Shown piece after piece: positions 2,164-16,249 of a stretch of DNA of 27,394 nt. Under the pieces are notes generated by a model. It did not search any database and was not told the origin of the DNA. It saw only the letters and a program-made list of their open reading frames with translations. The stretch comes from a virus. The translations under genes were made by a program, and so were the position numbers. Position 1 is the first letter of the stretch. Each line of letters starts with the position of its first letter. Location: positions 1 to 27,394 of the IMG/VR virus record IMGVR_UViG_3300046522_000372. The stretch is one strand, 5' to 3'.

Positions 2164-2179
2164 TTAGCGGGCCTTTTTT
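2142..2179 (+). terminator. Intrinsic terminator after tRNA-Val
   Basis: A 12-bp perfect stem (AAAGGCCCGCTA, 2142-2153, with TAGCGGGCCTTT, 2165-2176) can be extended across a G-T pair and two further pairs to a 5-nt loop. It runs into a T tract at 2174-2179. It would end the cpdR/tRNA transcript. The integrase stop codon and its last codons (from 2164) lie inside the right arm. Confidence 0.85.
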
Positions 2180-3462
2180 GATGCCCGGATCGGAACGATC
2201 TTCGGTGCCTCTCCGGTGTCTGTCCGGTGAAACGCACCCGGAACACGGGCTTCGATCTCATCAATGATCGCCTCGATCGCGCGCGTCGCATTGGCCAGAT
2301 AGTCCGGATCGAACGCGGCATAGAGGTCAGTCACGCTGTCCAGCTTGCGGTGCCCTAGCTGTAGCTCGATCTCTTCGCTTGGCACCTTGCGCGATTGGTC
2401 GCGCCATTCCTCCGACCATGCCCGTTTCGTGCCCGCGTCGCGGAGCAGCTGCGCGACCGATCGCCGGACGATCTTCATCCCGAACTCGCGATCGCGCGGC
2501 CAGCCGAGATCGTCGCACATGCTGTCCCAGGCGCTTCGCACCGACACGGCCTCGACGAAGAAGCCCTTCACTTCGTCCAGGCGGTGCGCGAGCTGCCACG
2601 GTGCGATCACGGTCGCGCGGTATTTCTTTGTCTGGCGTCGGCCGGCAGGATTGAGCGCCAGGACGCTGCGGTCGGCATTCCATTGGCGCCGATCCCTTTC
2701 GGTCGAGACATCGTGCGCGGCGTCGGGGCGGGCCGCGGTGCCGACCGAGAGCATCAGGAATCGATGCAGGCCCTGTCGCTTCACCGGGAAGCGTGGATCG
2801 CTCGCATAGCGGAACGCGGCGGCAATCTCATCGATCGACAGGCGCCGATAGGGCGTGCGGTTGAGTACCTTCGTCTGGATCGGGGTGAACCGGGCGCCCT
2901 CGGGTATACGCTTGCGCCATTCGGCCTGGTTGATCGCGGATTGCAGGGCGATCACGCTGTTCTCGGTTGTCGATGGCGCGCGTGGCTCATCGCGGAACCG
3001 GCCGGACGAGAAGACGACGGGCTGCGCGGCCGACCACGTGCGGAAAGCCGCGACCCAATCTTCGTCGACCTGTTCGCACTTGATCTCGGCCGAGGGCAGG
3101 GTGGCGATATAGTCGACGACGTGATCGAGCCGCGCGTCGAGGACGGTGTCGTCCTTCACCGCACGATATTCGTTGATCGCATTCGTCACGAAATAGGGTG
3201 TCGCTTCTGCCGGCTTGCGCTGGCCACAGGTCGGGCAAAGGTCGCCCCCGCCATGATCCGCCAGGTCTTTCAGGATGAGCGCGCGGAGCGCTTGCCCCTC
3301 ATCGACTGTGCCTGTCGAAGCGCTTCGGATGCGGCCTCGCTCATCGTCGTACCAGAAGATGGTAAGGAAGGGGCTTCGTCTGGTGCCGTCGGCGCGTTCA
3401 TCCCAGTCGAGCCAGTATCGACCGCGATGATGGAGCCCCTTCGCCTTTGCACGACGCGGCAT
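2164..3462 (-). CDS. Tyrosine-type phage integrase
   Basis: A 432-residue site-specific recombinase that would integrate and excise the prophage at the neighbouring tRNA-Val. The C-terminal catalytic domain shows Arg245 in GTAARPDA, a beta-hairpin lysine at 279/280 in QTKKYRATVIAP, Arg333 in KIVRRSVAQLL, His371 in LQLGHRKLDSVT and the nucleophile Tyr381 in DLYAAFDPDYL. The usual box II H-x-x-R reads K-x-x-R here (Lys330). The middle region (about 90-190) is the SAM-like core-binding domain. A CxxC pair (Cys76, Cys79) precedes it. The ATG at 3462 has an AAAGGA site 9-10 nt upstream. The gene overlaps the previous ORF (3270-3623) by 193 nt in another frame, and its stop sits in the tRNA terminator. 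Confidence 0.93.
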   Translation of the reverse strand: MPRRAKAKGLHHRGRYWLDWDERADGTRRSPFLTIFWYDDERGRIRSASTGTVDEGQALRALILKDLADHGGGDLCPTCGQRKPAEATPYFVTNAINEYRAVKDDTVLDARLDHVVDYIATLPSAEIKCEQVDEDWVAAFRTWSAAQPVVFSSGRFRDEPRAPSTTENSVIALQSAINQAEWRKRIPEGARFTPIQTKVLNRTPYRRLSIDEIAAAFRYASDPRFPVKRQGLHRFLMLSVGTAARPDAAHDVSTERDRRQWNADRSVLALNPAGRRQTKKYRATVIAPWQLAHRLDEVKGFFVEAVSVRSAWDSMCDDLGWPRDREFGMKIVRRSVAQLLRDAGTKRAWSEEWRDQSRKVPSEEIELQLGHRKLDSVTDLYAAFDPDYLANATRAIEAIIDEIEARVPGAFHRTDTGEAPKIVPIRASKKAR

Positions 3463-3623: not shown

Positions 3624-4021
3624 ATCAGATCAAACATCCCAAAGCGGACGCGCGCGCGCAGGAACTCGGTCGCGCCCATGCGGCCCGCCTCTCGGTCTTC
3701 GTCGCGCCATTGCTGGATCAGGCGGTTCTGCGCGTTGCTCGCCTTGCGAGCGATCACGCGATCCTCGTCGCTGCCGCGCGTTCCGTTTCGCGTCATGCGC
3801 GCGACGGCCGCGATCGGGGTCAGCACCTTGCCGCGCACGGTGGCCCGGTTCTCCCACGCCGCTTTATGTGGCGCCGAGCAGAACAGCTGGTTGCGCCTGT
3901 TCGGCTCGAACCGCTTGCCGCATTCAGGACAGGTCCGCTCGGCCCATCCGCCTATCTGCTGACCGGGGGTGCGGTTGTGGCCCTCCTGAGGGCACGTGCG
4001 TAACGCGGGTGCCTTCTTCAT
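3620..4021 (-). CDS. Small zinc-finger protein
   Basis: A 133-residue protein with a CxxC...C-x3-H set at Cys31, Cys34, Cys48 and His52 (CPECGKRFEPNRRNQLFC), typical of a small treble-clef/FCS-like zinc finger. A basic helical C-terminal half contains RKASNAQNRLIQQWRDEDRE. The start at 4021 was chosen because its ATG overlaps the upstream stop as ATGA; a longer reading with 35 extra residues has no support. Its stop likewise overlaps the next gene's ATG. Nucleic-acid binding is plausible but not shown. It belongs to the leftward operon with the integrase. Confidence 0.75.
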   Translation of the reverse strand: MKKAPALRTCPQEGHNRTPGQQIGGWAERTCPECGKRFEPNRRNQLFCSAPHKAAWENRATVRGKVLTPIAAVARMTRNGTRGSDEDRVIARKASNAQNRLIQQWRDEDREAGRMGATEFLRARVRFGMFDLI

Positions 4022-4506
4022 GCCGCGCGCCCCTGCTTTTTGCGGCTGCGCTGCCATTGGGCGAGACCGTGCGGTATCCAGATATGCGGCGGCGCGCCCT
4101 CGCTGGTCGGCTGGAGGTGCCACCACAGCGCCTCACCGACCTCGGCATTGCGGCGATCGTCGGAGCCGGCTTCCGGTCGATCGGCGAGCTGGCGCAAGCG
4201 CTCGCGGCTTCCCGCGATCTCGCGCTGCATGTCGGCGAGCGTCGCGCCCAGGCGCGGCTCGCAATCGGCCGGACCGGGAAGGTCTTCGCAGGCGAGGACG
4301 ATCTGCCACAGCTTCACGATCGCGCCCATCACGCGGAGGCCGCGCTCCGCCTGGTCGGCGGTCAGCTTCTCGCGCTCGACCAGGCTGGGATAGAGTTTCT
4401 GGCGCTGCTCAAGCAGATCGCCGGCGAGCCGCGCGCACGCTTCCCAGTCGTCGCGGCGCGTCGGCCACGGCGTCACGTCACTGGCGAAGGTGCGCAGCTC
4501 GCTCAT
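4018..4506 (-). CDS. Hypothetical helical phage protein
   Basis: A 162-residue, mostly helical protein rich in Arg, Glu and Leu. It has helices around DDWEACARLAGDLLEQRQKLY (split by charged turns) and TADQAERGLRVMGAIVKLWQ. The ATG at 4506 overlaps the upstream stop as ATGA, and its own stop overlaps the next ATG the same way. No signal peptide, membrane segment or known catalytic motif is visible. I do not recognise it. Its position in the leftward integrase operon suggests an accessory role in the lysogen or early infection. Confidence 0.7.
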   Translation of the reverse strand: MSELRTFASDVTPWPTRRDDWEACARLAGDLLEQRQKLYPSLVEREKLTADQAERGLRVMGAIVKLWQIVLACEDLPGPADCEPRLGATLADMQREIAGSRERLRQLADRPEAGSDDRRNAEVGEALWWHLQPTSEGAPPHIWIPHGLAQWQRSRKKQGRAA

Positions 4507-4979
4507 GCGGCCAGCCTGACCGTCTCGGCGCGCAGCAACCGGGCGAGTGCGAAGGGATCGTTGACCAGCCTGAGCAAGACGTTGGCGTGGCACCAGGCGG
4601 AGGTCAGCGGGCACCAGCATTGCAGGTTGCGTCCGCGAAGGTCGACCAGCGAGCGGAGCAGCCGCTGCCGCCAGCGGTGGAGCGCGGCGATCTCATCGCG
4701 CCCGAAGCCGCAGCGCGACAGGATATAATCGTTCAGACGGCCATGGATCCACGCATCATAGAGTATGACGCTGCGCTTGTGGCTGATCCTGCCGCGTCGC
4801 TCGAATGGATTGCTATAGTCGGTCGGACGGCCGACATACCGCGCACCCGGTGGGGTGCGGGCGTTCTTGCCCCGCACCCGGTGCAGTCGGACGGGCATCA
4901 AATCGGGAGCGCAAGCGACCTTGATCGGCGGGGAGGAACGACCCGCCGATCCTAGTGCGAGATGCACTGTCGTGATCAC
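4503..4979 (-). CDS. DUF4326 domain protein (left-arm copy)
   Basis: Carries the DUF4326 pattern: an N-terminal R-x-x-R-x-K strand, GARYVGRPTDYSNPF (the G-R-P-[ST]-x-x-x-N-P-F signature), and the C-terminal LRGRNLQCWCPL...CHANVLLRL block with paired cysteines. DUF4326 is frequent in phages and its biochemical role is unknown. Two starts are possible. GTG at 4979 overlaps the upstream stop as GTGA and fits this operon's coupling style. The internal ATG at 4898 gives a 131-residue protein starting where the domain starts. Neither has a clear ribosome site. A second, diverged DUF4326 gene lies at 11493-11918 in the same prophage. Confidence 0.82.
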   Translation of the reverse strand: MITTVHLALGSAGRSSPPIKVACAPDLMPVRLHRVRGKNARTPPGARYVGRPTDYSNPFERRGRISHKRSVILYDAWIHGRLNDYILSRCGFGRDEIAALHRWRQRLLRSLVDLRGRNLQCWCPLTSAWCHANVLLRLVNDPFALARLLRAETVRLAA

Positions 4980-5833
4980 GCGGCGACCGCGACGGGGGCT
5001 GCGGCGAGAAGTTCGAGTAGCTTTTCCGCCTGCCGCGCGTAAGCCTTTTGACGAGCAGCATCAGCAGCAGCAGCATAAGCAGCATAAGCAGCATCAGCAG
5101 CATAAGCAGCATCAGCATCAGCAGCAGCAGCATAAGCAGCATAAGCAGCATCAGCAGCATAAGCAGCATCAGCATCAGCAGCATCAGCATCAGCAGCATC
5201 AGCATAAGCAGCAGCAGCAGCAGCAGCAGCATCAGCAGCAGCAGCATCAGCATCAGCAGCAGCAGCATCAGCAGCATCAGCATCAGCAGCAGCAGCATCA
5301 GCATCAGCAGCAGCAGCATAAGCAGCAGCAGCATAAGCAGCAGCAGCATCAGCAGCAGCAGCATAAGCAGCAGCTCTAGCAGTGGAGGCCGCGTTACGTG
5401 CATCTACCGGATTGATTACTTCGCCGATCGATCGGCGGCGGAGTATTTCTATTGCATCGACGACGGCGGCCTTGGTCTTTTCATTACCATGCCGCTCGTT
5501 GACGTCGACAACTACCCAGTGGAGGAATTGCCATCCGACCAATGATAGGTCGGCGCCGACCGGGATCGCCGAGATGAACCGCGCCGGGAACAGCTTGGCT
5601 TCGGCATTCGGCATGCCTTCGAAGATGCGATCCTCCAGCCGGGCGAGCATGCGAGGGATGCCCAGTTCGCGCTCATAGGCCGAATGGTCCGAGCCGTGGA
5701 TCGTGCAGCCGACCGCGCAGCCCTTGCCGCCTTCCCAGTACTTGCCCTTGACGATCTCGTCGGCGGCCTGGTGCGCTTCGATCTGGGCGAGCTTGCTCGC
5801 CTTGAGCTGCGGTAAAGAGTGAAATGCGAACAT
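4976..5833 (-). CDS. Phage protein with Ala/Asp/Tyr low-complexity tail
   Basis: A 285-residue protein in two parts. Residues 1 to about 150 form a conserved-looking domain with the Cys-containing motif GKGCAVGCTIHGSDHSAYE and the block IPRMLARLEDRIFEGMPN followed by FPARFISAIPVG. I recall such N-termini from other phage proteins of unknown function. Residues from about 154 to 260 consist only of Ala, Asp and Tyr, in patterns such as AAYAA and AADAD, encoded by only three codons. A basic R-Q-K-A-Y-A-R-Q helix closes the protein. The tail should form a long alanine-rich helix. A strong AAGGAG site lies 9 nt before the ATG. It is part of the leftward operon, directly upstream of the DUF4326 gene with a GTGA overlap. 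Confidence 0.8.
   Translation of the reverse strand: MFAFHSLPQLKASKLAQIEAHQAADEIVKGKYWEGGKGCAVGCTIHGSDHSAYERELGIPRMLARLEDRIFEGMPNAEAKLFPARFISAIPVGADLSLVGWQFLHWVVVDVNERHGNEKTKAAVVDAIEILRRRSIGEVINPVDARNAASTARAAAYAAAADAAAAYAAAAYAAAADADAAAADADAADAAAADADAAAADAAAAAAAAYADAADADAADADAAYAADAAYAAYAAAADADAAYAADAAYAAYAAAADAARQKAYARQAEKLLELLAAAPVAVAA
5054..5374 (-). repeat. In-frame triplet repeat tract (GCT/GAT/TAT)
   Basis: A 321-nt tract of exactly 107 codons. On the coding strand it uses only GCT (Ala), GAT (Asp) and TAT (Tyr). On the plus strand it reads as runs of AGC with ATC or ATA inserted. Larger blocks recur, for example the stretch encoding DAAYAADAAYAAYAAAADA. The Ala codon GCT contrasts with the GCC/GCG used elsewhere, which points to growth by slippage or recombination rather than selection for alanine alone. 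Confidence 0.9.
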
Positions 5834-5866
5834 GGGTAACGTCTCCTTGTGGTGAAGGGTTGAAGG

Positions 5867-5989
5867 TCAGGCCGCGTCGTCACGCGCTGCGGGTGACAAA
5901 GGCGCGGGATAGGTGCGCTGGCGGACGATCTTGCCGCGCTGCCATTCGATCCAGTTGGATGGGCGTTGCCCAATGGCGGGGCGGGTCAT
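5867..5989 (-). CDS. Small ORF, 40 aa hypothetical
   Basis: A 40-residue reading frame (starting MTRPAIGQRPSNWIEWQ and ending ARDDAA) fills the gap between two operon genes. Its ATG overlaps the upstream stop as ATGA (5986-5989), the junction used by its neighbours. It is basic with two Trp and has no recognisable family. The next gene starts 34 nt after its stop with its own strong ribosome site. Support is positional only. Confidence 0.5.
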   Translation of the reverse strand: MTRPAIGQRPSNWIEWQRGKIVRQRTYPAPLSPAARDDAA

Positions 5990-6603
5990 TCGCCGTCCTC
6001 GGGCGCGAACCACAGTTTGCGAGGGCCGCTCTCGTGGAGCCTGCGGCGGAACTTCAACTCATAGCCCCGGTCTTTCAGCATCCGGGCCATTCGCGTGTTC
6101 GTGAGATTGGAGCCCCACGATCCAAGGGCCTCGCAGGCCTCAGCTATCGTGAAGGGCGCGGGCGGCAGCTTCGACCAATCCAACTCGATTGGCGGACTGA
6201 TCAACTCCCGCTCGACGCGATTGAGCGCCGACCGGCAGTCGCGCAGCTCGCGTGCGAGCCAGTCCTCGTTTGCTTCCTGCTGTTCCTCTGGAAGTTCGGG
6301 ATTAACGCTGTGGCGCCCCCAACGGAGCGTTTTCCCGCCAGCCGCGACAAACTCGCCAGCTTCTTCGATCGCGTGCGCCAAGGCGAAGTCGAAGCCGGGC
6401 CGACTATAGCAGGCCTTCGGCGCATCCTGTGGATCGTCCAGCACCAAGTAGAACTTGAAGCCGTCGATCTCCACGCGGATTTGCTGGCCGTCCTGTCCGA
6501 TCGCCACCTCGCAGTCTGCGAGGTGTTCATGGTCGGGAAGAAAAGCCTGGAGCGTGCTGCGGATGGCGGCGATGACGCCGGCCGTTTCGATTGCAGCGCC
6601 CAT
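5986..6603 (-). CDS. Hypothetical phage protein, 205 aa
   Basis: An acidic, apparently cytoplasmic protein. The N-terminal half contains an alpha/beta-looking segment (CEVAIGQDGQQIRVEIDG then FKFYLVLDDPQDAP), the centre a charged helix (EEQQEANEDWLARELRDCR), and the C-terminus (about 150-200) a winged-helix-like stretch with FTIAEACEALGSWG and NTRMARMLKDRGYELKF. The last part resembles phage DNA-binding domains of the AntA/KilA-C or primase-associated type, but I cannot assign a family. The start is either ATG 6603 (sharing A with the upstream TGA) or GTG 6606 one codon earlier. Confidence 0.7.
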   Translation of the reverse strand: MGAAIETAGVIAAIRSTLQAFLPDHEHLADCEVAIGQDGQQIRVEIDGFKFYLVLDDPQDAPKACYSRPGFDFALAHAIEEAGEFVAAGGKTLRWGRHSVNPELPEEQQEANEDWLARELRDCRSALNRVERELISPPIELDWSKLPPAPFTIAEACEALGSWGSNLTNTRMARMLKDRGYELKFRRRLHESGPRKLWFAPEDGE

Positions 6604-6926
6604 CACTGCACCCGCCCGGCGACAAGCGCCCAGGAGAAGCCGCCGAGCATCATGGCGGCGAGCATGACCGCGATGATGAGGGCAAGATTGCCGAGGATGC
6701 GGCCGAGCTGATCGCCGCGGCCGGGGGTGGGCTGGTCCGCCCAGGCATAGTCGTCGCCGGCTTGGTCGTTATGCGCGGGGTCGTACGCTAGCGCCTCAAG
6801 GCGATACAGCGCCTGGACCGCCTCGAACGAGATGGGCTCGTTGCGGGCGGGATCGTAAGCTGCTGCCTGGAGGCGATGCAGCGACTGCATCACGCCCAAA
6901 GGCACTTGGATGGGTTGTACGGACAT
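6603..6926 (-). CDS. Small C-terminally anchored membrane protein
   Basis: First gene of the leftward operon, 107 residues. A soluble N-terminal part contains two similar stretches, LHRLQAAAYDPARNEP and LYRLEALAYDPAHNDQ, an internal duplication of the pattern L-x-R-L-x-A-x-A-Y-D-P-A-x-N. A single strongly hydrophobic segment (LGNLALIIAVMLAAMMLGGF, about residues 76-95) precedes a short tail, suggesting a tail-anchored inner-membrane protein. The ATG at 6926 has GGGAGG 6 nt upstream; the reading frame extends 16 codons further but would cross the promoter. The function is unknown. First position in a repressor-controlled operon would fit superinfection exclusion or similar, but that is inference. 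Confidence 0.72.
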   Translation of the reverse strand: MSVQPIQVPLGVMQSLHRLQAAAYDPARNEPISFEAVQALYRLEALAYDPAHNDQAGDDYAWADQPTPGRGDQLGRILGNLALIIAVMLAAMMLGGFSWALVAGRVQ

Positions 6927-6952
6927 GCGGGCCTCCCGGTTGACGGGGGCCG

Positions 6953-7001
6953 TACCTAATGAGCAATAGCGCATTCGTCAAACGTAAATGCGCAATTGCT
7001 C
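6953..7001 (-). promoter_or_regulatory. Leftward promoter PL with inverted-repeat operator
   Basis: Reading leftward, TTGACG (6976-6981) is separated by 17 nt from TAGGTA (6953-6958), a plausible -35/-10 pair 26 bp ahead of the first operon gene. The spacer contains GAGCAATAGCGCATT (6961-6975). Its inverted partner AATGCGCAATTGCTC lies at 6987-7001, matching 14 of 15 positions around an 11-bp centre that holds the -35 box. The same core recurs at the repressor gene's own control region, so this is a likely repressor operator. The -10 match is weak. Confidence 0.7.
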
Positions 7002-7062
7002 AATTCTACGGCAGGACGCCGGGTGATACCATTGCGTCGCGGGTTAGGTGGGGAGGCTTGAT

Positions 7063-7443
7063 ATGTGGGCAGCGGCCGTCGGTGCGACATTCAATCTCAT
7101 ATGCAGCGGTATGCTGTTGACGACCGATTTTCGCGGGAAAAGAAGTGAAGCATATTCGGATACATACCGGCTGGACCTCGGCGCGAGGAAGTATTGCGAG
7201 AGTGAATGCAAAGCGCAGTTCGATATCGCGCGCGTCGATCCGACCGAACTTACCCTCGACCAGAAGGGCGACGCCATGACGCGCGGTTCAGAATATCTCG
7301 TCAATCGTGTCGATCGAGAGACTGGCGCGCACTCGGCGTTCGCGAGTAGCGGCCGGGGCTCAAGCACGGTCATGCTGACATGGACGGGTGTGTGCAAGGT
7401 CGCGCCGTTTACCGGCTTCCCGACATTTAAGACGAAGTTCTAG
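7063..7443 (+). CDS. Hypothetical protein of secreted-family type
   Basis: A 126-residue protein read rightward, opposite to both flanking genes, and ending 3 bp before the stop of the repressor gene. It carries an aliphatic N-terminus followed by FNLICSG, then YRLDLGARKYCESECKAQFDIARVD and NRVDRETGA, and ends G-V-C-K-V-A-P-F-T-G-F-P. I recognise this pattern from alphaproteobacterial hypothetical exported proteins, with Cys pairs that could form disulfides. The N-terminal hydrophobic stretch is short for a signal peptide, so export is uncertain. The ATG at 7063 follows GGGGAGG by 7 nt; a GTG at 7048 is less likely. It may be a lysogen-expressed cargo (moron) gene. Confidence 0.65.
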   Translation: MWAAAVGATFNLICSGMLLTTDFRGKRSEAYSDTYRLDLGARKYCESECKAQFDIARVDPTELTLDQKGDAMTRGSEYLVNRVDRETGAHSAFASSGRGSSTVMLTWTGVCKVAPFTGFPTFKTKF

Positions 7444-7446
7444 GCC

Positions 7447-8214
7447 TCAGCCGAGGCCGAGTTCGCCCCACGGCACCCAGCGGTGAATCGTGTGCACGTC
7501 GCGCATCGGTACGCGGAAGCGCATCCTGGGGTTGAACTGCTCAAGCTCGATAAACTCAGCGCCACGCTTGACCAGCTTCTTGAGCAAGACACTTGCGACG
7601 CGACCCTCGCCCTCAGAGTCTCGCCGGATGAGCTGGACGACCACGATGTCCCCGAGGACGGGCCGCTGGTCGGGATTGATGTAGATCGGATCGCCATCGT
7701 CGAACTTCTCGTACATCGACACCCCGCGAACGGTCAGCGAGTAGGAGTTAGGAGAATCTCGGAGCCCTGGCGGCCGGAAGCGCATGTCGGCGGGCTCATC
7801 GAGATAGACGTCCATCTGTTCGGCAAAGTGGGGTTCGCCCTCCTCTGTAAATTCGAAATCGGCCGCCTGCGCGGTCCCGTAATGCGGCACGTCATAGCGG
7901 TCGGCGTCGGGCGTGCCGGCAAGCTTCGCCGCCGGCGATGAAATGCGGCCGATTGTTGTTGCGCCATCGCGCTCCGCCAGCAAATCCTGAAACTCTGTCA
8001 TTGTGACGCCCACGACGCCGAGTATCCGGGCAAGACGATCGACCGACGGGGTCTTTCCCTTTTTGAGGTCCTGGAAATAGCTGGTCGATACGCGAGCGCG
8101 CCGCGACCATTCCGCCCAATTCAATTCGTCGGGCTTCAGGACCGCCAGCAGCTTCCAAAGAGCTGAAGGTTCGTCTTTGATCTCAGTCACCAATTCGCAA
8201 TAGCTAATTGTCAT
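7447..8214 (-). CDS. CI/LexA-like repressor with S24 peptidase domain
   Basis: A 255-residue phage repressor. An N-terminal helix-turn-helix (about 33-72) contains NWAEWSRRARVSTSYFQDLKKG and PSVDRLARILGVVG. The C-terminal S24 domain has the nucleophile Ser166 in VRGVSMYEKFDDGDPIYIN and a candidate base Lys212/Lys213 in VLLKKLV. An Ala-Gly pair (99-100) in the linker could be the self-cleavage site, so induction by RecA-stimulated autocleavage is predicted from the family. The start at 8214 was chosen because a longer reading (to 8280) would run through the operators. It reads leftward, divergent from the Cro-like gene at 8289. Confidence 0.9.
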   Translation of the reverse strand: MTISYCELVTEIKDEPSALWKLLAVLKPDELNWAEWSRRARVSTSYFQDLKKGKTPSVDRLARILGVVGVTMTEFQDLLAERDGATTIGRISSPAAKLAGTPDADRYDVPHYGTAQAADFEFTEEGEPHFAEQMDVYLDEPADMRFRPPGLRDSPNSYSLTVRGVSMYEKFDDGDPIYINPDQRPVLGDIVVVQLIRRDSEGEGRVASVLLKKLVKRGAEFIELEQFNPRMRFRVPMRDVHTIHRWVPWGELGLG

Positions 8215-8227
8215 GGCATGCGTCACG

Positions 8228-8279
8228 CTAAGCGATAGCGCATTTTGCGCTTGCGTGATGAGCGATAGCGCATTACGCA
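8228..8279 (+). promoter_or_regulatory. Rightward promoter PR and tandem operators
   Basis: Between the repressor and the Cro-like gene the sequence AGCGATAGCGCATT occurs twice in direct orientation (8231-8244 and 8261-8274), exactly 30 bp apart. A rightward promoter can be read as TTGCGT (8251-8256), a 17-nt spacer filled by the second copy, and TACGCA (8274-8279). The arrangement mirrors the left promoter, where the core also fills the -35/-10 spacer. Transcription from it would start only a few bases before the ATG at 8289. The repressor promoter presumably overlaps the first copy, but its boxes are not clear. Confidence 0.65.
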
Positions 8280-8288
8280 TGCCGCCCC

Positions 8289-8591
8289 ATGACGATAATG
8301 ACCGACGAAGAGCTGATTGCTCGCATCGAGGCTTTCATAGAGCGAACCGATGGCATGACACCGACGCGGTTCGGTTTGGACGCTGTCGGCGAAGGCGGGT
8401 TCATCAACAGGCTGAAGGCGGGCAGATCGGTCAGCCTTAAACTGGCTAACCGTGTTCTTGCATTCATGGCTCAGCGCGAGGCCGAAATTGCCGAAGCGTC
8501 GGTTCATGACGCATCCGATACGACCGGCACGCCCGCTCTGTCAGCGGGAAACGACGCGGAAAAATCCCGCCGGGCCGCCGCCAATGCGTGA
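8289..8591 (+). CDS. Small HTH protein, Cro-like
   Basis: A 100-residue protein and the first gene of the rightward operon. A helix-turn-helix-like unit is visible at about 22-60 (MTPTRFGLDAVGEG, then FINRLKAGRSVSLKLANRVLAFM): helix 2 carries Pro-Thr-Arg-Phe, and the recognition helix is followed by the K-A-G-R turn common in Cro/CI-type proteins. The C-terminal ~35 residues are polar and low complexity. Position opposite the S24 repressor makes a Cro-like lysis regulator the natural reading. The start is ATG 8289 or the in-frame ATG 8298. No ribosome site precedes 8289, consistent with a leaderless message. Confidence 0.75.
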   Translation: MTIMTDEELIARIEAFIERTDGMTPTRFGLDAVGEGGFINRLKAGRSVSLKLANRVLAFMAQREAEIAEASVHDASDTTGTPALSAGNDAEKSRRAAANA

Positions 8592-9072
8592 CCGCGGCCT
8601 GACCACCGACGAGCAGGTCCTGGCCCGCGCCACCAAAGGCGGGGTGCAGGCGGCCGGCGGGCTGGACATCTGCGAGCGCGAGACGGGCAAATCCGACAGC
8701 CAGCTGTCGCGTTGCTGCTCGACCTCACTGCCCGACAGCATTTCCATCCGCGACGCCGTGATCATCGACGCGATCGGCGTCGGCAAGGCCGGACACCCCC
8801 ATATCCTACGGGCACAGGCGCGCATCCTCGGTTTCCTCTGCGTCCCGCAGCCGAGCATCCCGGGCAGCGACGACCGGCTGCTGAAGACCGTGGCCGAGAT
8901 GATGGCCGAGCTGGGCGACGTCGCGACCGAGGTTGCCGACGCGCTGCGCGACGACGGCGAGTGCGATGCGCGTGAGGCGCGCCGCATCCTGATCCAGCTC
9001 GACGAACACGACACCGTGAGCGCGCGGTTACGCGCCGAATTGAACGCCATCGTGGCGAAGGAGGGGAAATGA
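8584..9072 (+). CDS. CII-like phage regulatory protein (putative)
   Basis: A 162-residue protein. An HTH-like stretch at about 18-62 (KGGVQAAGGLDICERETGKS and DSQLSRCCS) followed by ISIRDAVIIDAIGVGKAGHPHILRAQARILGF resembles the phage regulatory CII/CP76 pattern, in which a Gly-rich helix precedes T-G-K-S-x-S-Q-L-S-R. The C-terminal half is helical and may oligomerise (TVAEMMAELGDVATEVADAL). ATG 8584 overlaps the upstream stop by 8 nt; an upstream extension of 44 codons is out of register with any ribosome site. Control of the lysogeny decision is inferred from place and pattern. Confidence 0.72.
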   Translation: MRDRGLTTDEQVLARATKGGVQAAGGLDICERETGKSDSQLSRCCSTSLPDSISIRDAVIIDAIGVGKAGHPHILRAQARILGFLCVPQPSIPGSDDRLLKTVAEMMAELGDVATEVADALRDDGECDAREARRILIQLDEHDTVSARLRAELNAIVAKEGK

Positions 9073-9620
9073 ACACGATTACGACTTTTACGCCGAGCGC
9101 GAACGCGCTGGGCATGGTGGCTGCGGCGCGGGAGGATGCGGGCGCCAGCAATCCGGTGAGCGAAGGCGCGGTGATGCTGGCCGAGTTCCTGGTCGATCGT
9201 GCGGTGCACCCGGTGATCGACTTCCTGGGCGGCTGGGGCGGCGTGTCGCGGCTGCTGGCCGATGGCTATATGCCGGGCAACGATATCGGCGAGGAAATGG
9301 GCCGCCTGACCAACGGCGTGCTGACGCCGCAAATGTGGCGGCGCGCGTGGGACGGTGAGATCGATCCGCCTGCGCCCGCATTCGACGAAGACCATCAGGA
9401 GCGCATGGGCGCGATCGCCGCGCCGGCACCCAGCATTGGCGCGATCGGCACGATTCCGCCCGGCGCGTTGTTCCGGTTCCGCGCGGTCGAGGACGAGCCG
9501 GGCCTGCGTCAGATCGCCGGCTTGGGGATCGCGATCGAAGGCGGGGACGCCGAATTGTGCAGCCTGCGCGACGCGTGCGCTGCCGCGATCGCCGACCTGC
9601 GTGGTGGCTCCGGGGCATGA
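9069..9620 (+). CDS. Hypothetical early phage protein, 183 aa
   Basis: A 183-residue protein whose ATG overlaps the previous stop (ATGA). A central block, VIDFLGGWGGVSRLLADGYM followed by LTNGVLTPQMWRRAWDGEIDPP, looks like a compact helical DNA-binding or partner-binding unit. The flanks are Ala/Pro/Gly-rich. There is no membrane segment or catalytic motif. The family is not recognised. A regulatory role is suggested only by its place directly after the two regulators. Confidence 0.68.
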   Translation: MNTITTFTPSANALGMVAAAREDAGASNPVSEGAVMLAEFLVDRAVHPVIDFLGGWGGVSRLLADGYMPGNDIGEEMGRLTNGVLTPQMWRRAWDGEIDPPAPAFDEDHQERMGAIAAPAPSIGAIGTIPPGALFRFRAVEDEPGLRQIAGLGIAIEGGDAELCSLRDACAAAIADLRGGSGA

Positions 9621-10749: not shown

Positions 10750-11023
10750 GCGCACCTTCGACACCGTGCGCGCCGAGACGATCGTCATCGAGCGCTCCGC
10801 GGTCCTGACGCACCGGCGCCAGCACGCGGCCGGGATCGACGAACAGGTCAGGCTCGGCCGCATGAGTGAGGACGAGGGCACGCTGTGCAAGCGCTGCGTC
10901 GCCGCCTTCGCCGACGACCTGGCGATCGGGCTGCACGTCGCCGGCACCGATCCGGACGGGGTCCGTCAGGCCATGCGCGGCGTGATCCGCGCCCACGTCA
11001 AGCAACACTCGGGGGATCAGTGA
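10742..11023 (+). CDS. Hypothetical early phage protein, 93 aa
   Basis: A 93-residue protein overlapping the previous gene by 8 nt and the next start by 1 nt (TGATG at 11021-11025). It contains a charged helix (HRRQHAAGIDEQVRLGRMSE), a CxxC pair (LCKRC), and a C-terminal Asp/Arg helix. No recognised family. The N-terminus VRRTFDTVRAETIVIERSAV looks like paired strands. Confidence 0.65.
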   Translation: MVRRTFDTVRAETIVIERSAVLTHRRQHAAGIDEQVRLGRMSEDEGTLCKRCVAAFADDLAIGLHVAGTDPDGVRQAMRGVIRAHVKQHSGDQ

Positions 11024-11496
11024 TGTCCAACCTCCAATACGCCACGCGCGAGGAAATGGCCGTTTGGGCAGCGCTCGTGATGGAGCGCGAACCGGATTTC
11101 ATCATCGGTGAAATCGACAACCCCTATCTGCGGCGCTGGTGGATCGTTCCGCGCAACGAGGGGTGCAACGTCTATCTGCACGAGATCCTGCGTAGCGACG
11201 ACGATCGCGCGCTGCACGATCATCCCTGGCCGAACACGTCGATGCTGCTCGACGGACGCTACATCGAGCATACGCCCGATGGCAGCACGCTACGCGAGGC
11301 CGGTTGGATCGGGACACGTGAAGCAATCGCGCTGCACCGGCTGGAGATTCTGCCGGGCGAGCGCGCGGTGTCGCTGTTCATTACCGGGCCGAAGGTCCGC
11401 GAGTGGGGCTTCGCTTGTCCGAACGGCTGGGTGCACTGGCGCGACTTCACTGGCGGCGAGAATGGCGAAGTGGTTGGCCGAGGGTGCGGCGAGTGA
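11023..11496 (+). CDS. Cupin-like phage protein
   Basis: A 157-residue protein with a beta-barrel pattern and a metal-site-like H-x-H (His65 and His67 in RALHDHPWPNTSMLLDG) followed by a later His (His105 in IALHRLEILPGERAVSLF). This is the spacing expected for a cupin fold (HxH...E...H). The block VREWGFACPNGWVHWRDF near the C-terminus is familiar from prophage hypothetical proteins. Enzymatic activity, if any, is not predictable. ATG 11023 shares its A with the previous TGA; the longer frame from 10885 is an overprint of the upstream gene. Confidence 0.75.
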   Translation: MSNLQYATREEMAVWAALVMEREPDFIIGEIDNPYLRRWWIVPRNEGCNVYLHEILRSDDDRALHDHPWPNTSMLLDGRYIEHTPDGSTLREAGWIGTREAIALHRLEILPGERAVSLFITGPKVREWGFACPNGWVHWRDFTGGENGEVVGRGCGE

Positions 11497-11918
11497 GCGC
11501 CGCGCGCATTCGCCTATCCCGATCCAGCGGTTTCCGCTTGCCGAAGGGGACGATCAATGTCGCCCGGCCGGGCAAGCTCGGCAATCCGTTCATCGTCGGC
11601 AAATGGGGCACGCGGGCGCAGTGCGTGAGTGCGCTTGCGTCGCTCGCTGCGGGTTTCATCAACCTCGGTACCAGTCATGTCTCGGTCGACCATCAGCTGG
11701 CGCTGTGGGGTCATATCCACGCTTCGCGGGATCGCTTTATCGGTTGCGACGTAGCCTGCTGGTGCTCGCTCGACGGGCCGTGCCACGGCGATGTTTACCT
11801 GCATCTCTGGAATGGCGGGTCGATCGCCGACCTTGTCCAGTTCTTCGTTGAGCCGCCGCGCGTCGGGCTCGGCATGATGGCGTGGGACTTGCTGAAAGCG
11901 CCGGGGGCGGTGGCATGA
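11493..11918 (+). CDS. DUF4326 domain protein (early-operon copy)
   Basis: A 141-residue protein with the DUF4326 signature NVARPGKLGNPFIVGKWGTR and the C-terminal CDVACWCSLDGPCHGDVYLHLW (Cys-W-Cys ... Cys-His) block. The start is GTG 11493, overlapping the upstream stop as GTGA; its stop overlaps the methyltransferase ATG (11915-11918). A C-terminal extension of about 35 residues (LVQFFVEPPRVGLGMMAWDL) is absent from the left-arm copy at 4503. The function of the family is unknown. Sitting directly ahead of the helicase-methyltransferase fusion, it may act with DNA modification, which is inference. Confidence 0.82.
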   Translation: MSAARIRLSRSSGFRLPKGTINVARPGKLGNPFIVGKWGTRAQCVSALASLAAGFINLGTSHVSVDHQLALWGHIHASRDRFIGCDVACWCSLDGPCHGDVYLHLWNGGSIADLVQFFVEPPRVGLGMMAWDLLKAPGAVA

Positions 11919-14620
11919 GGCACGCCGGCGCCCTCGCATCGTCGACTGCTGCCCAGCCGCTCGACTATCTCGACTTCGTCCGCGCGAAGATCATCACGTT
12001 GCCCGCGCTCGGCCTGCCGGTGCCCGCCAACGACGTGCATCCGTGGCTGAAGCCGCATTGCCGCGATATCGTCACCTGGGCGGTCAATGGCGGACGTCGC
12101 GCGATCTTCGCGAACTTCGGGCTGCACAAGACGGCGATGCAGCTGGAATGCCTGCGCCTGATCCGGGTCGGTGAAGGCGGACTGCAACTGATCATCGCGC
12201 CGCTCAACGTCATCCTGGAGGGGACGTTCGACGGCGACGCCGCGCAGATCGGAATCGACACGCGGTTCGTGCGCACCACGGCCGAGATCCTGTCGGCCGT
12301 GGCAGCGGGCTTCGTCGGCCAGTTCCTGACGAATTACGAGAGCGTCCGCGAAGGCAAGATCGACGCCAGCCTGTTCAATGCGGTGTCGCTCGATGAGGCG
12401 GACTGCCTGCGCGGGTTCGGCGGGACCAAGACCTTCCGCGAGTTCATGCGGCTGTTCCCCGGCCTGCAATACAAGTTCGTCGCGTCGGCCACGCCCGCGC
12501 CCAACGACTATGTCGAGCTGCTCGCCTACGCAGCGTTCCTCGAGGTGATGGACGTCGGGCAGGCGAAGACCCGGTTCTTCAAGCGCAACAGCGAAGAAGC
12601 CGACGACCTGACGATCCACCCGCACAAGGTGCAAGAGTTCTGGCTGTGGGTGAACAGCTGGGCGGCGTTCGTGCAGCGGCCGAGCGATCTCGGCCATAGC
12701 GACGAAGGCTATGACCTGCCGCCGATCCGCGTGCGCTGGCACGAAGTCGCGGCCGATCACGCGATCGCGGGAGAGGACAAGGCCGGACAAGGCCTGTTGC
12801 TCAAGAAGGACGCGATCGGCGTCATCGAGGCCAGCCGCGAGAAACGCGACAGCATCGACGCGCGGATCGCGAAGATGATGGAGCTGCGCGCCGAAGACCC
12901 GGCCGCGCATCGCCTGATCTGGCACGACCTGGAGCGCGAGCGGCTGGCGATCGAGAAGGCGATCCCCGGCATCGTCACCGTGTACGGCTCGCAGGATACC
13001 GGCGAGCGCGCCAAGGCGTTCCAGCGGTTCAAGCATGGTGGCGCGGCCGAGCTGGCGACCAAGCCGGTGATCGCCGGCGCCGGCTGCAATTTCCAGAAGC
13101 ATTGCTGGTGGGAAATCTTCCTCGGCATCGGGTTCAAGTTCCGCGACTTCATCCAGGCGATCCATCGCGTGCAGCGGTTCGGCCAGGCGCACGAGGTGCT
13201 GATCGACCTGATCTTCACCGAGGCCGAGCGCGCGGTGAAGGCCGAGCTGGAGCGCAAGTGGCGCGATCACGACGCCATGTGCGCGATGATGAGCGGGATC
13301 ATCCGGCGCTATGGCCTCGGGCTCGAGGGTGCTGCCGACGTCCTGATCCGCACGGTCGAAACCGGTACCGAACTCGACAGCGAGCAGGCGACGATCGCGA
13401 CCTTCGACGGCCAGCCCGATTGGCAGGTATGGCGCGGCGACACCGTGTTGCAAGCGTGCAACCTGGCGACGGACAGCGTCGGCCTGATGGTCACCAGCGT
13501 GCCGTTCGGGTCGCAGTACGAATATAGCCCGAGCTATAACGACTTCGGCCACACCGACGATCTGAACCATTTCTTCGCGCAGATGGACTTCCTGACGCCC
13601 GAGCTGCTGCGCGCGTTGCAGCCGGGTCGGCGCCTGGCGGTGCACGTCAAGGATCGCGTCGTGCCGAGCGGGATGACCGGGCTGGGCTTCCGCACGATCG
13701 AGCCGTTCCACGCGCGCTGCATCGAGCATTATCGCGCGCATGGCTTCGCCTATCTCGGCATGATCACGATCGTCACCGATGTCGTGCGCGAAAATGCGGG
13801 CACCTACCGGCTCGGCTGGAGCGAGCAGTGCAAGGACGCGTCCGGCATGGGCGTTGGCCTGCCGGAATATCTGCTGCTGTTCCGCAAGCCGCCCAGCGAT
13901 CGCTCGAACGGCTATGCCGACGATCCGGTCAAGAAGGCGAAGCCGCTGGTCGACCTGGAGGATGGCGATCGCGTCGGCTGGGACGATCCACGCGCGGCAC
14001 GGGCCGGGAAGGCGCATACGGCGCGCCTGGTGCCCGACAGCGGCTATTCGCGGTCGCGGTGGCAGATCGACGCGTGCAGCCTGTGGCGCAGCTCCGGTGA
14101 CCGCGTGCTGACGCCCGGCGACCTGGTCGGCATCCCGCACGATGCGATCTACAAGGCGTTTCGCGGTTTCAGCTTCGCGACGGTCTATGATTACGAGCAG
14201 CATGTCGCGCTGACAGAATCTATCGAGGCTCGGCATGCGCTCCCGACCGACTTCGCGCTGACGCCTGCGCAAAGCTGGCATCCCGACGTCTGGACCGACG
14301 TCGCGCGCATGCTCGGCGCCAACACGATGCAGAGCGCCAAGGGGCGCGAGCAGCATCTCTGCCCGCTGCCGTTCGATATCGTCGACCGGGCGATCGCCAA
14401 TTGGAGCGAGCCCGGCGAGCTTGTCTATGACCCTTTCGGGGGATTGATGACCGTGCCGATGCGCGCGGTGAAGCTCGGCCGGCGCGGCGCCGCGGTCGAA
14501 CTCAACCCCGGCTATTTTGCGGATGGCGTGAAGCTGCTGCGCGAGCAGGATGCCGGGCGCGCGACGCCCAGCCTGTTCGATCTGCTCGATTTCGAGCAGC
14601 AGGCGGAGGCGGCGGAATGA
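11915..14620 (+). CDS. SNF2-like helicase / DNA methyltransferase fusion
   Basis: 901 residues in two halves. Residues ~40-455 are a superfamily-2 (SNF2-type) ATPase: a degenerate Walker A NFGLHKT (67-73), LIIAPLNVI (92-100), a DEAD box at 160-163, SAT at 191-193, and a motif VI QAIHRVQRFGQ (414-424). Residues ~500-880 are a beta-class (motif IV before motif I) adenine-N6/cytosine-N4 methyltransferase: catalytic motif TSVPFGSQY (527-535), LLLFRKP (653-659), the H-x-x-P-L-P-F block (814-820), and the AdoMet-binding DPFGG (839-843) with VELNPGYF. The segment ~590-800 should hold target recognition. It starts with an ATGA overlap and is coupled to a 64-aa gene and a DndC-like gene. It is likely a phage DNA-modification or anti-restriction enzyme; the recognition sequence is unknown. 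Confidence 0.88.
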   Translation: MRHAGALASSTAAQPLDYLDFVRAKIITLPALGLPVPANDVHPWLKPHCRDIVTWAVNGGRRAIFANFGLHKTAMQLECLRLIRVGEGGLQLIIAPLNVILEGTFDGDAAQIGIDTRFVRTTAEILSAVAAGFVGQFLTNYESVREGKIDASLFNAVSLDEADCLRGFGGTKTFREFMRLFPGLQYKFVASATPAPNDYVELLAYAAFLEVMDVGQAKTRFFKRNSEEADDLTIHPHKVQEFWLWVNSWAAFVQRPSDLGHSDEGYDLPPIRVRWHEVAADHAIAGEDKAGQGLLLKKDAIGVIEASREKRDSIDARIAKMMELRAEDPAAHRLIWHDLERERLAIEKAIPGIVTVYGSQDTGERAKAFQRFKHGGAAELATKPVIAGAGCNFQKHCWWEIFLGIGFKFRDFIQAIHRVQRFGQAHEVLIDLIFTEAERAVKAELERKWRDHDAMCAMMSGIIRRYGLGLEGAADVLIRTVETGTELDSEQATIATFDGQPDWQVWRGDTVLQACNLATDSVGLMVTSVPFGSQYEYSPSYNDFGHTDDLNHFFAQMDFLTPELLRALQPGRRLAVHVKDRVVPSGMTGLGFRTIEPFHARCIEHYRAHGFAYLGMITIVTDVVRENAGTYRLGWSEQCKDASGMGVGLPEYLLLFRKPPSDRSNGYADDPVKKAKPLVDLEDGDRVGWDDPRAARAGKAHTARLVPDSGYSRSRWQIDACSLWRSSGDRVLTPGDLVGIPHDAIYKAFRGFSFATVYDYEQHVALTESIEARHALPTDFALTPAQSWHPDVWTDVARMLGANTMQSAKGREQHLCPLPFDIVDRAIANWSEPGELVYDPFGGLMTVPMRAVKLGRRGAAVELNPGYFADGVKLLREQDAGRATPSLFDLLDFEQQAEAAE

Positions 14621-14811
14621 GCGGGCGAACCGAACGGCGTTTCGTGAACGAGCGCGATCGCGAGATCATCATATCGGTTGAGGACCGTCCCGCTCGCGGC
14701 ATCAGGATAGAGATTGAAGGGCCGTTTAGCCGCTCGACCAATACGATTACCGATCGGGAGGCCACGGAGCTTCGCGACGCGCTGATCGAGCATCTTGGGC
14801 GGCCATCTTGA
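14617..14811 (+). CDS. Small hypothetical protein, 64 aa
   Basis: A 64-residue protein tied by ATGA to the methyltransferase stop and by TTGA to the next gene. It reads as two strands (REIIISVEDRPARGIRIEIEG) and a C-terminal helix (TITDREATELRDALIEHLGR), a compact alpha/beta domain. The family is not recognised. Its position between two candidate modification enzymes is the only functional hint. Confidence 0.65.
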   Translation: MSGRTERRFVNERDREIIISVEDRPARGIRIEIEGPFSRSTNTITDREATELRDALIEHLGRPS

Positions 14812-16013
14812 CCGCGATCGACAACCTGTTCGCGCGTGGCGTCCATATGGTCCATGAAGAGATGGTCGAGATGACGCTTGCCTCGCTTCGCGAATACTGG
14901 CCGCGTCACAGTCATTTCGCGCTCGCCTGGTCGGGCGGCAAAGACAGCACGGCGTTGCTGACGTTGATCATTCACCTGATCGATGCCGGCCTGCTGCCGC
15001 AGCCCGAGGTCCTGTACGTGTTCTACGTCGACACGCGGCAGGAGCTTCCCCCGATCCAGCGCGCGGCCGAGCTGGTCATTGCCAAGCTGCGGCTGCGGAA
15101 TTGGATCAAGGTCAGCGTCGTCACGGCCCCGCTCGATAAGCGGTTCATGGTCTATATCCTCGGCCGGGGCGTGCCGCCTCCGAACAACAACACGCTGCGT
15201 TGGTGCACCCGCCAGATCAAGGTCGAGCCGATGGCCGAAGCGCTCGGCGCCGCGATTGCCGGCCTGCCGGGCACGGCGTTGATGCTCACCGGCGTGCGCG
15301 AAGGTGAGAGCGCGGTGCGCGATGGTAGAATCTCCATGTCGTGTTCCAAGGATGGCGCGGAGTGTGGTCAGGGCTGGTACCAGCAGGTGTTGCCCGAAGC
15401 GAAAGGCATCAAGGGCAGGCTGGCCACGCTCGCACCGTTGCTGCACTGGCGCGTCTGCACGGTCTGGGACTGGCTGAAGGTCTATGCCCCGCAACCCGAG
15501 TTCGGCGGCTGGCCGGTGTCGATCCTGGCGGATGCCTATGGCGGCGATGACGCGACCGAGATCAATGCGCGTACCGGCTGCATAGGGTGTCCGCTGACCG
15601 AGAAAGACACGGCGCTGGAAGTGATCGTCGCCATGCCGGCGTGGTCGCACCTTTCGCCGCTGCTCGAACTCAAGCCGCTCTATCGCTGGATGCGCAAGCC
15701 TCGGCAGCGGCTCCGCAAGAGCGGTGTCGAGCGCCTGAAGGATGGCAGCATCGCCAAGAACCCGCAGCGGATGGGACCGCTGACGCTCAAGGCGCGTGCC
15801 GAGGCGCTGGACAAAATCCTCGATATCCAGCGCCGCGCCGGCGTCGACCTGATCAACGATGAAGAGGAAGCGCGCATCCGCGAGCTGATCGCGGCGCGCA
15901 CCTTCCCCGACAAATGGGATGGCGACGAGCCTAGCGCCGAGGCGTGGCTGGACAGCATCTATGGCGACGGCAGCGTCCAGCCGATCCTCTTTCGGGAGTT
16001 GGTTGGAACATGA
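14808..16013 (+). CDS. DndC/PAPS-reductase-like PP-loop ATPase
   Basis: A 401-residue member of the PAPS reductase/DndC superfamily of ATP pyrophosphatases. The PP-loop SGGKDST is at 42-48; the DndC-like block LGRGVPPPNNNTLRWCTRQIK spans 118-138 in two parts around Cys133; TGVREGES is at 161-168; and the C-terminal motif TGCIGCPLTEKDTALE spans 256-271. Cysteines 133, 179, 186, 258 and 261 could bind an iron-sulfur cluster, as DndC does. DndC activates substrates for DNA phosphorothioation, but no dndB, dndD or dndE homologue is visible here. The start is TTG 14808 (TTGA overlap). A thio-modification, nucleotide metabolism or sulfate-assimilation role all remain open. Confidence 0.82.
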   Translation: MTAIDNLFARGVHMVHEEMVEMTLASLREYWPRHSHFALAWSGGKDSTALLTLIIHLIDAGLLPQPEVLYVFYVDTRQELPPIQRAAELVIAKLRLRNWIKVSVVTAPLDKRFMVYILGRGVPPPNNNTLRWCTRQIKVEPMAEALGAAIAGLPGTALMLTGVREGESAVRDGRISMSCSKDGAECGQGWYQQVLPEAKGIKGRLATLAPLLHWRVCTVWDWLKVYAPQPEFGGWPVSILADAYGGDDATEINARTGCIGCPLTEKDTALEVIVAMPAWSHLSPLLELKPLYRWMRKPRQRLRKSGVERLKDGSIAKNPQRMGPLTLKARAEALDKILDIQRRAGVDLINDEEEARIRELIAARTFPDKWDGDEPSAEAWLDSIYGDGSVQPILFRELVGT

Positions 16014-16249
16014 GGAACGCTCCGCGACCCTGCCCGGTCAAATACTGCACCCACACGCTGCCGTGGCCGCGCGCATCGTTCTGCCAGCGGTGCTTCGCAC
16101 GCATTCCCGGCGATATCCGCGGGCGGATGGACGACGCGACGCGAAAGCAGGCCGCGCACCTGGTCGGCGCGGCCGTGATCGAGGCGCGTGTCTGGCTCGA
16201 CGCGCACCCGCCTGGTGCTGATCCGCGAACCGGCGAAGCACCGACCTGA
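16010..16249 (+). CDS. Small Cys-rich (zinc-binding) protein
   Basis: A 79-residue protein with four N-terminal cysteines at 8, 13, 25 and 28 (CPVKYCTHTLPWPR followed by FCQRC), a probable zinc-ribbon-like site, then an Ala-rich helix. The ATGA overlap with the DndC-like stop supports the start at 16010. The family is not recognised. It ends 54 bp before the primase, leaving the first real gap in the operon. Confidence 0.7.
   Translation: MRNAPRPCPVKYCTHTLPWPRASFCQRCFARIPGDIRGRMDDATRKQAAHLVGAAVIEARVWLDAHPPGADPRTGEAPT

Follow-up and report, generated by a model that had tools for sequence, protein, structure and literature searches.

The 401-aa PP-loop protein encoded in the early operon of this phage is best explained, from its sequence relationships, as a member of a mobile clade which lies beside, and not inside, the DndC family. 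The reading that we favour, at a probability of roughly 0.4, is that it may act as a stand-alone iron-sulfur sulfurtransferase on nucleic acid, probably DNA, using sulfur supplied by the host, and that it would do so separately from the SNF2-type methylase encoded upstream of it, in an anti-restriction region whose genes reassort. The window, by which we mean the whole stretch of DNA analysed (27,394 nt), is the 27.4-kb record of a temperate tailed phage. Its genes run from the integrase through a repressor, a CII-like activator, the early operon and a Prim-Pol/D5 protein to the terminase, portal, protease and head genes. The features referred to here are as follows.

2064–2138, tRNA-Val (gac) gene, adjoining the integrase gene
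2167–3462, minus strand, integrase, adjoining the tRNA-Val gene
near 4506–4979, minus strand, second DUF4326 gene
11023–11496, plus strand, cupin with the PHROG name ‘cysteine dioxygenase’ (phrog_4786, 1.8e-60), ATG at 11023
11493–11918, plus strand, DUF4326 protein of 141 aa with a GTG start, variable cargo (PF14216, 4.5e-14)
11915–14620, plus strand, fusion of an SNF2-type ATPase with an N4/N6 methyltransferase, 901 aa (PF01555, 9.6e-10; phrog_16, 1.1e-100)
14617–14811, plus strand, orphan linker gene of 64 aa (weak match to phrog_12635, 3e-5)
14808–16013, plus strand, DndC-related PP-loop protein of 401 aa with a TTG start (phrog_12882, 3e-209; PF01507, 3.7e-10; PADLOC DndC, 1.2e-26)
16010–16249, plus strand, Cys-rich zinc-ribbon-like protein of 79 aa, CX4C...CX2C (PF23545, E=0.06, below cut-off; phrog_36250, 0.0022), with its ATG at 16010 inside a listed ORF at 15944

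The position of the tRNA-Val gene beside the integrase suggests that the phage integrates at tRNA-Val; the DNA to the left of that gene may be host sequence. As the closest relatives of the PP-loop protein among named bacterial genomes are found in sphingomonads, the host is probably a sphingomonad.

The four genes from the SNF2-methylase to the Cys-rich protein are indeed linked by start/stop overlaps, as the preliminary description had it, with ATGA or TTGA at the junctions, and the DUF4326 gene which it placed directly upstream does overlap the start of the SNF2-methylase at 11915. The chain of overlaps runs on upstream, where the TGA of the cupin overlaps the start of the DUF4326 gene, making the cupin an upstream member of the chain, and where further overlaps join a 93-aa gene to the cupin and the genes at 8452 and 9069 to each other; the overlaps therefore do not define a four-gene unit. 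They are the rule across the operon, not the mark of a special set of four, and the neighbourhood controls given below warn that such overlaps are a poor guide to function in compact phage operons.

The best profile for the PP-loop protein, phrog_12882, is labelled PAPS reductase, and the match to PF01507 exceeds that model's own cut-off, both of which speak for an auxiliary sulfate-assimilation enzyme of the CysH type. This reading is nevertheless extremely improbable: the CysH model gives 17 bits, its cut-off being 154, the ECGxH motif is missing from the window copy and from all of the genomic copies (0/80), and a true ATP-pyrophosphatase motif, SGGKDS, is present at residues 42–47. The absence of any CysH signature means that the ‘PAPS reductase’ label misleads. 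Across 161 copies of the PP-loop protein S42, K45, D46 and S47 are invariant, as are cysteines 133, 179, 217, 258 and 261, while Cys186 varies once.

The similarity to DndC extends over nearly the full length of the protein, the C-terminal part included; residues 30–386 align to 22–387 of the PADLOC DndC profile (91.7 bits), and the SGGKDS motif and the RWCT and GCxxC cysteines are shared with DndC (TIGR03183). Calling the protein a DndC-family PP-loop enzyme, as was first done, thus holds for the kinship, but ‘DndC’ itself is too strong a name, since the score against the curated TIGR03183 equivalog is 85.6 bits, well under the cut-off of 290.4, and a cysteine dyad is missing. An alignment was made of six clade members with six DndC references, three of which (Salmonella, Chlorohelix and Halorubrum) come from operons that also hold dndD and dndE. 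Cys133, 258 and 261 are common to both groups, whereas the second cysteine pair found in all six references is missing from the clade; the column of Salmonella C262 holds Ala, Ser or Val in 161/161 clade copies and that of C273 is a gap in the six aligned members. Conversely, the near-invariant Cys179, 186 and 217 are specific to the phage clade. According to a published analysis of DndC, three of its cysteines belong to the iron-sulfur centre, and sulfur transfer is assigned to a separate dyad (PMC10853773). We infer that the aligned columns correspond to these published cysteines, and the PP-loop protein would then be predicted to bind an iron-sulfur cluster through the shared three.

In a tree of 27 sequences, one of them an unreliable long-branch plasmid sequence, the PP-loop clade is supported at 100/99 and all six DndC proteins fall across a long branch. 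Its nearest outgroup is the PAPS reductase homologue of Thermus phage Tsatsa (XKB89950), which has the same six-cysteine layout but only 35% identity and belongs to a much smaller, IN93-related phage with no methylase annotated alongside. Members of the clade are carried by phages, prophages and plasmids, one of them a Deinococcus plasmid, and a genome scan placed the family in hosts from at least two bacterial phyla. The clade is set apart from both CysH and DndC by its cysteine set, and it travels without detectable Dnd partners.

The latter point was examined in 24 phage records carrying the PP-loop gene, six of them from named phages and some possibly fragments. In these records no DndD scored over the cut-off, no DndE was found, and no cysteine desulfurase (Aminotran_5) was detected; the corresponding controls recovered DndE in 3/3 true dnd records and Aminotran_5 in 14/14 control genomes. 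The early suggestion that the usual dnd partners are missing is thereby borne out. IscS can replace DndA (PMC10853773, PMC8569181). A supply of sulfur from the host is therefore plausible.

DndC needs DndD and DndE to reach DNA, whereas tRNA thiolases need only a desulfurase. The lack of a conserved partner that would bring the PP-loop enzyme to DNA counts against the DNA-sulfur reading, and an RNA substrate is accordingly possible. The main rival is thus that tRNA, or some other RNA, is what the protein thiolates in the infected cell, in the manner of TtcA, NcsA or TtuA, with the effect of restoring or altering codon reading or of shielding tRNA from host anticodon nucleases. Such an enzyme would act without DndD or DndE, and a fold search lists NcsA with its [4Fe-4S] cluster (6scy, Z 10.9), TtuA and TilS. 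These are, however, found among many PP-loop enzymes and the fold match is a generic one. The AlphaFold (AF2) model behind the search (pLDDT 80) has a PP-loop fold, with most of the cysteine loops at low confidence, and it returned generic PP-loop matches only; apart from a weak FAD synthase match, searching solved structures by sequence revealed no relative. The sequence kin of the protein is DndC (91.7 bits with PADLOC, 85.6 with TIGR03183) and not TilS (14 bits), with the C-terminal part also aligning to DndC. We consider thiolation of RNA unlikely, and it is this kinship over nearly the whole length of the protein that leads us to rank DNA above RNA as the substrate.

A DndC relative that is carried by phages and lacks partners could also be a decoy or regulator directed at the Dnd or Ssp defences of the host, competing for IscS or for DndD/E and so blocking the marking or the sensing of DNA. 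The invariance of the ATP-pyrophosphatase motif and the near-complete conservation of six cysteines in 161 copies would not be expected of a mere mimic, and the family occurs in at least two phyla and on a Deinococcus plasmid, whereas dnd systems are patchy. We regard a decoy role as quite unlikely.

Under the favoured reading, a sulfurtransferase acting on nucleic acid, the PP-loop enzyme would adenylate an oxygen on its substrate, DNA more likely than tRNA, and would take sulfur, as persulfide, from the host cysteine desulfurase IscS, passing it through the clade's own cysteine set; phage DNA would thereby gain a sulfur mark that may help it to evade restriction. The SNF2-methylase would methylate phage DNA independently, the two enzymes working in parallel and not as one machine. 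The narrower proposition that a clade split from DndC, with a different cysteine relay and no DndD or DndE, places sulfur on phage DNA in particular is more tentative, and somewhat unlikely. If true, it would amount to a DNA sulfur modification independent of Dnd and Ssp, spread across tailed phages, Thermus phages and plasmids. It raises a concrete question, namely whether the PP-loop enzyme sulfurates phage DNA and whether its methylase neighbours are needed for this.

The SNF2-methylase is, as originally described, an SNF2-like ATPase fused to an N-methyltransferase. Its ATPase motifs (FGLHKT/DEAD/QAIHRVQRFGQ) and methyltransferase motifs (TSVPF/DPFGG) match the forms found family-wide in 27 relatives, and in the methylase part motif IV precedes motif I, the beta order of N4/N6 methyltransferases. 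In place of the textbook TSPPY there is TS[I/V]PF; as nearly the same form recurs across the 27 relatives, it characterises the family and is no sign of decay. The fusion matches 308 phage records, and it is a typical member of an already known kind (phrog_16), with the same architecture and motifs as the SNF2/DNA-methylase fusions of Pseudomonas, Mycobacterium and Flavobacterium phages and nothing unusual in comparison with them.

Whether the two enzymes belong together was judged from their neighbourhoods, in which small genes are approximate because the genes of related loci were called with a home-made codon-usage caller. A methylase (C5, N4/N6 or SNF2) lies within 3 kb of the PP-loop gene in 41/80 viral and 36/80 genomic loci. 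In Rhizobium phage RR1-A, phiC725A, D14A and OQ658365, and on one Deinococcus and one Endozoicomonas plasmid, for example, the neighbour is a C5 methylase; in Microcystis phage Mae-JY29, whose PP-loop protein is 81% identical to that of the window, it is an N4/N6 methylase. Almost all of the C5 methylases in viral PP-loop loci (28/29) fall within 3 kb of the gene (binomial 1.7e-9 versus uniform placement). We considered a special link between the PP-loop gene and C5 methylases and rejected it: loci around the SNF2-methylase are even richer in C5 neighbours (31/60 versus 31/114), and C5 methylases occur in 24/50 PP-loop phages against 19/50 control phages (p=0.42), the latter being picked through their cupin gene and so not a random sample. 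Scanning for the portal gene, with a view to a neutral set of controls, yielded two relatives only. With methylases no commoner in PP-loop phages than in controls, the genes around the PP-loop gene offer weak evidence that its product acts on DNA.

It could still be argued that the four genes form a coupled cassette in which ATP-driven targeting comes from the SNF2-methylase and sulfur is added by the PP-loop enzyme at or near the methylated sites. The ATGA/TTGA coupling in the window favours this arrangement, as do the position of an SNF2-methylase directly upstream of the PP-loop gene in Phyllobacterium (L136) and one gene further away in Leeuwenhoekiella (L163), and the order kept in a sibling locus (L053) with a PP-loop protein 97% identical, where SNF2-methylase, PP-loop gene, Cys-rich gene and primase follow one another as in the window. 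Reverse searches weigh against it. A PP-loop gene was found within 3 kb at 6/60 SNF2-methylase loci, compared with 6/98 C5-methylase and 3/80 cupin loci, and near-full-length matches in phage records number 290 for the SNF2-methylase and 12 for the PP-loop protein. The 64-aa gene, moreover, is not conserved. A coupled cassette is thus very unlikely, and the dedicated four-gene modification unit of the preliminary description, for which conservation of the block in other phages had been the proposed check, does not survive these counts, co-occurrence being no higher than background. The PP-loop gene and the SNF2-methylase are movable neighbours, not a fixed machine. These counts are most simply explained by a shared early region that gains and loses anti-restriction genes, and the best explanation of the region as a whole is an anti-restriction or DNA-modification island in the early operon of a temperate phage, with freely reassorting cargo. 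In the Leeuwenhoekiella (Bacteroidota) locus, positions 3681–9146 hold an SNF2-methylase and a separate SNF2 helicase before the PP-loop gene.

The smaller genes differ in their persistence. The 64-aa gene has no relative among IMG/VR viral contigs and is replaced by an unrelated small gene in the sibling, the upstream genes of which are also different, while the Cys-rich 79-aa protein is kept there at 62%. For DUF4326 proteins the proposed substrates are derivatives of ADP-ribose (PMC9503650). The syntenic DUF4326 gene of the sibling corresponds to the copy at 4506–4979 and not to that at 11493, so the latter appears to be an extra acquisition. Where the window has this extra copy the sibling encodes, at about 4749–5048 and directly upstream of its SNF2-methylase, a protein of about 100 aa with a Rieske-like CxH...CxxH motif. 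A link between the PP-loop gene and DUF4326 was discarded (9/50 versus 4/49), DUF4326 being rare near the PP-loop gene, and so was one with the cysteine-dioxygenase-like cupin, which is not enriched (6/50 versus 4/50; 3/80 in reverse). Nor did an in-frame reading past the cupin stop hold, as the sequence beyond the stop is not conserved.

Genes annotated as DndC-like or PAPS-reductase-like have been reported singly in phages (PMC12429752, PMC13299392, PMC11437467, PMC8092301), and the excerpts of these four papers contain no functional test of them; one of them describes the role of phage and plasmid PAPS-reductase-like genes as open (PMC11437467). They are usually filed as auxiliary genes of sulfur metabolism. 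In the open literature, of which coverage is incomplete, we found no paper defining the PP-loop clade or its cysteine set. A parallel by description is found in Mycobacterium abscessus prophages, where a DndC-like gene has been noted together with a cysteine-dioxygenase-like gene in the early region, as in the window (PMC8092301). The CasCysH protein of type IV-B CRISPR systems and the PAPS reductase of type 4 BREX are likewise PP-loop proteins found on mobile or defence elements, and their roles are either unknown or related to sulfur (PMC8175902, PMC12839542). Both were compared by description; for CasCysH the catalytic cysteine is reported to be absent, and the BREX protein, which like the PP-loop clade has no DndC dyad, carries extra domains. 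On the conjugative IncC plasmid pVPS114 (L471), a DNA cytosine methyltransferase gene is followed, about 1.8 kb downstream, by the gene of an 817-aa PAPS-reductase-like protein.
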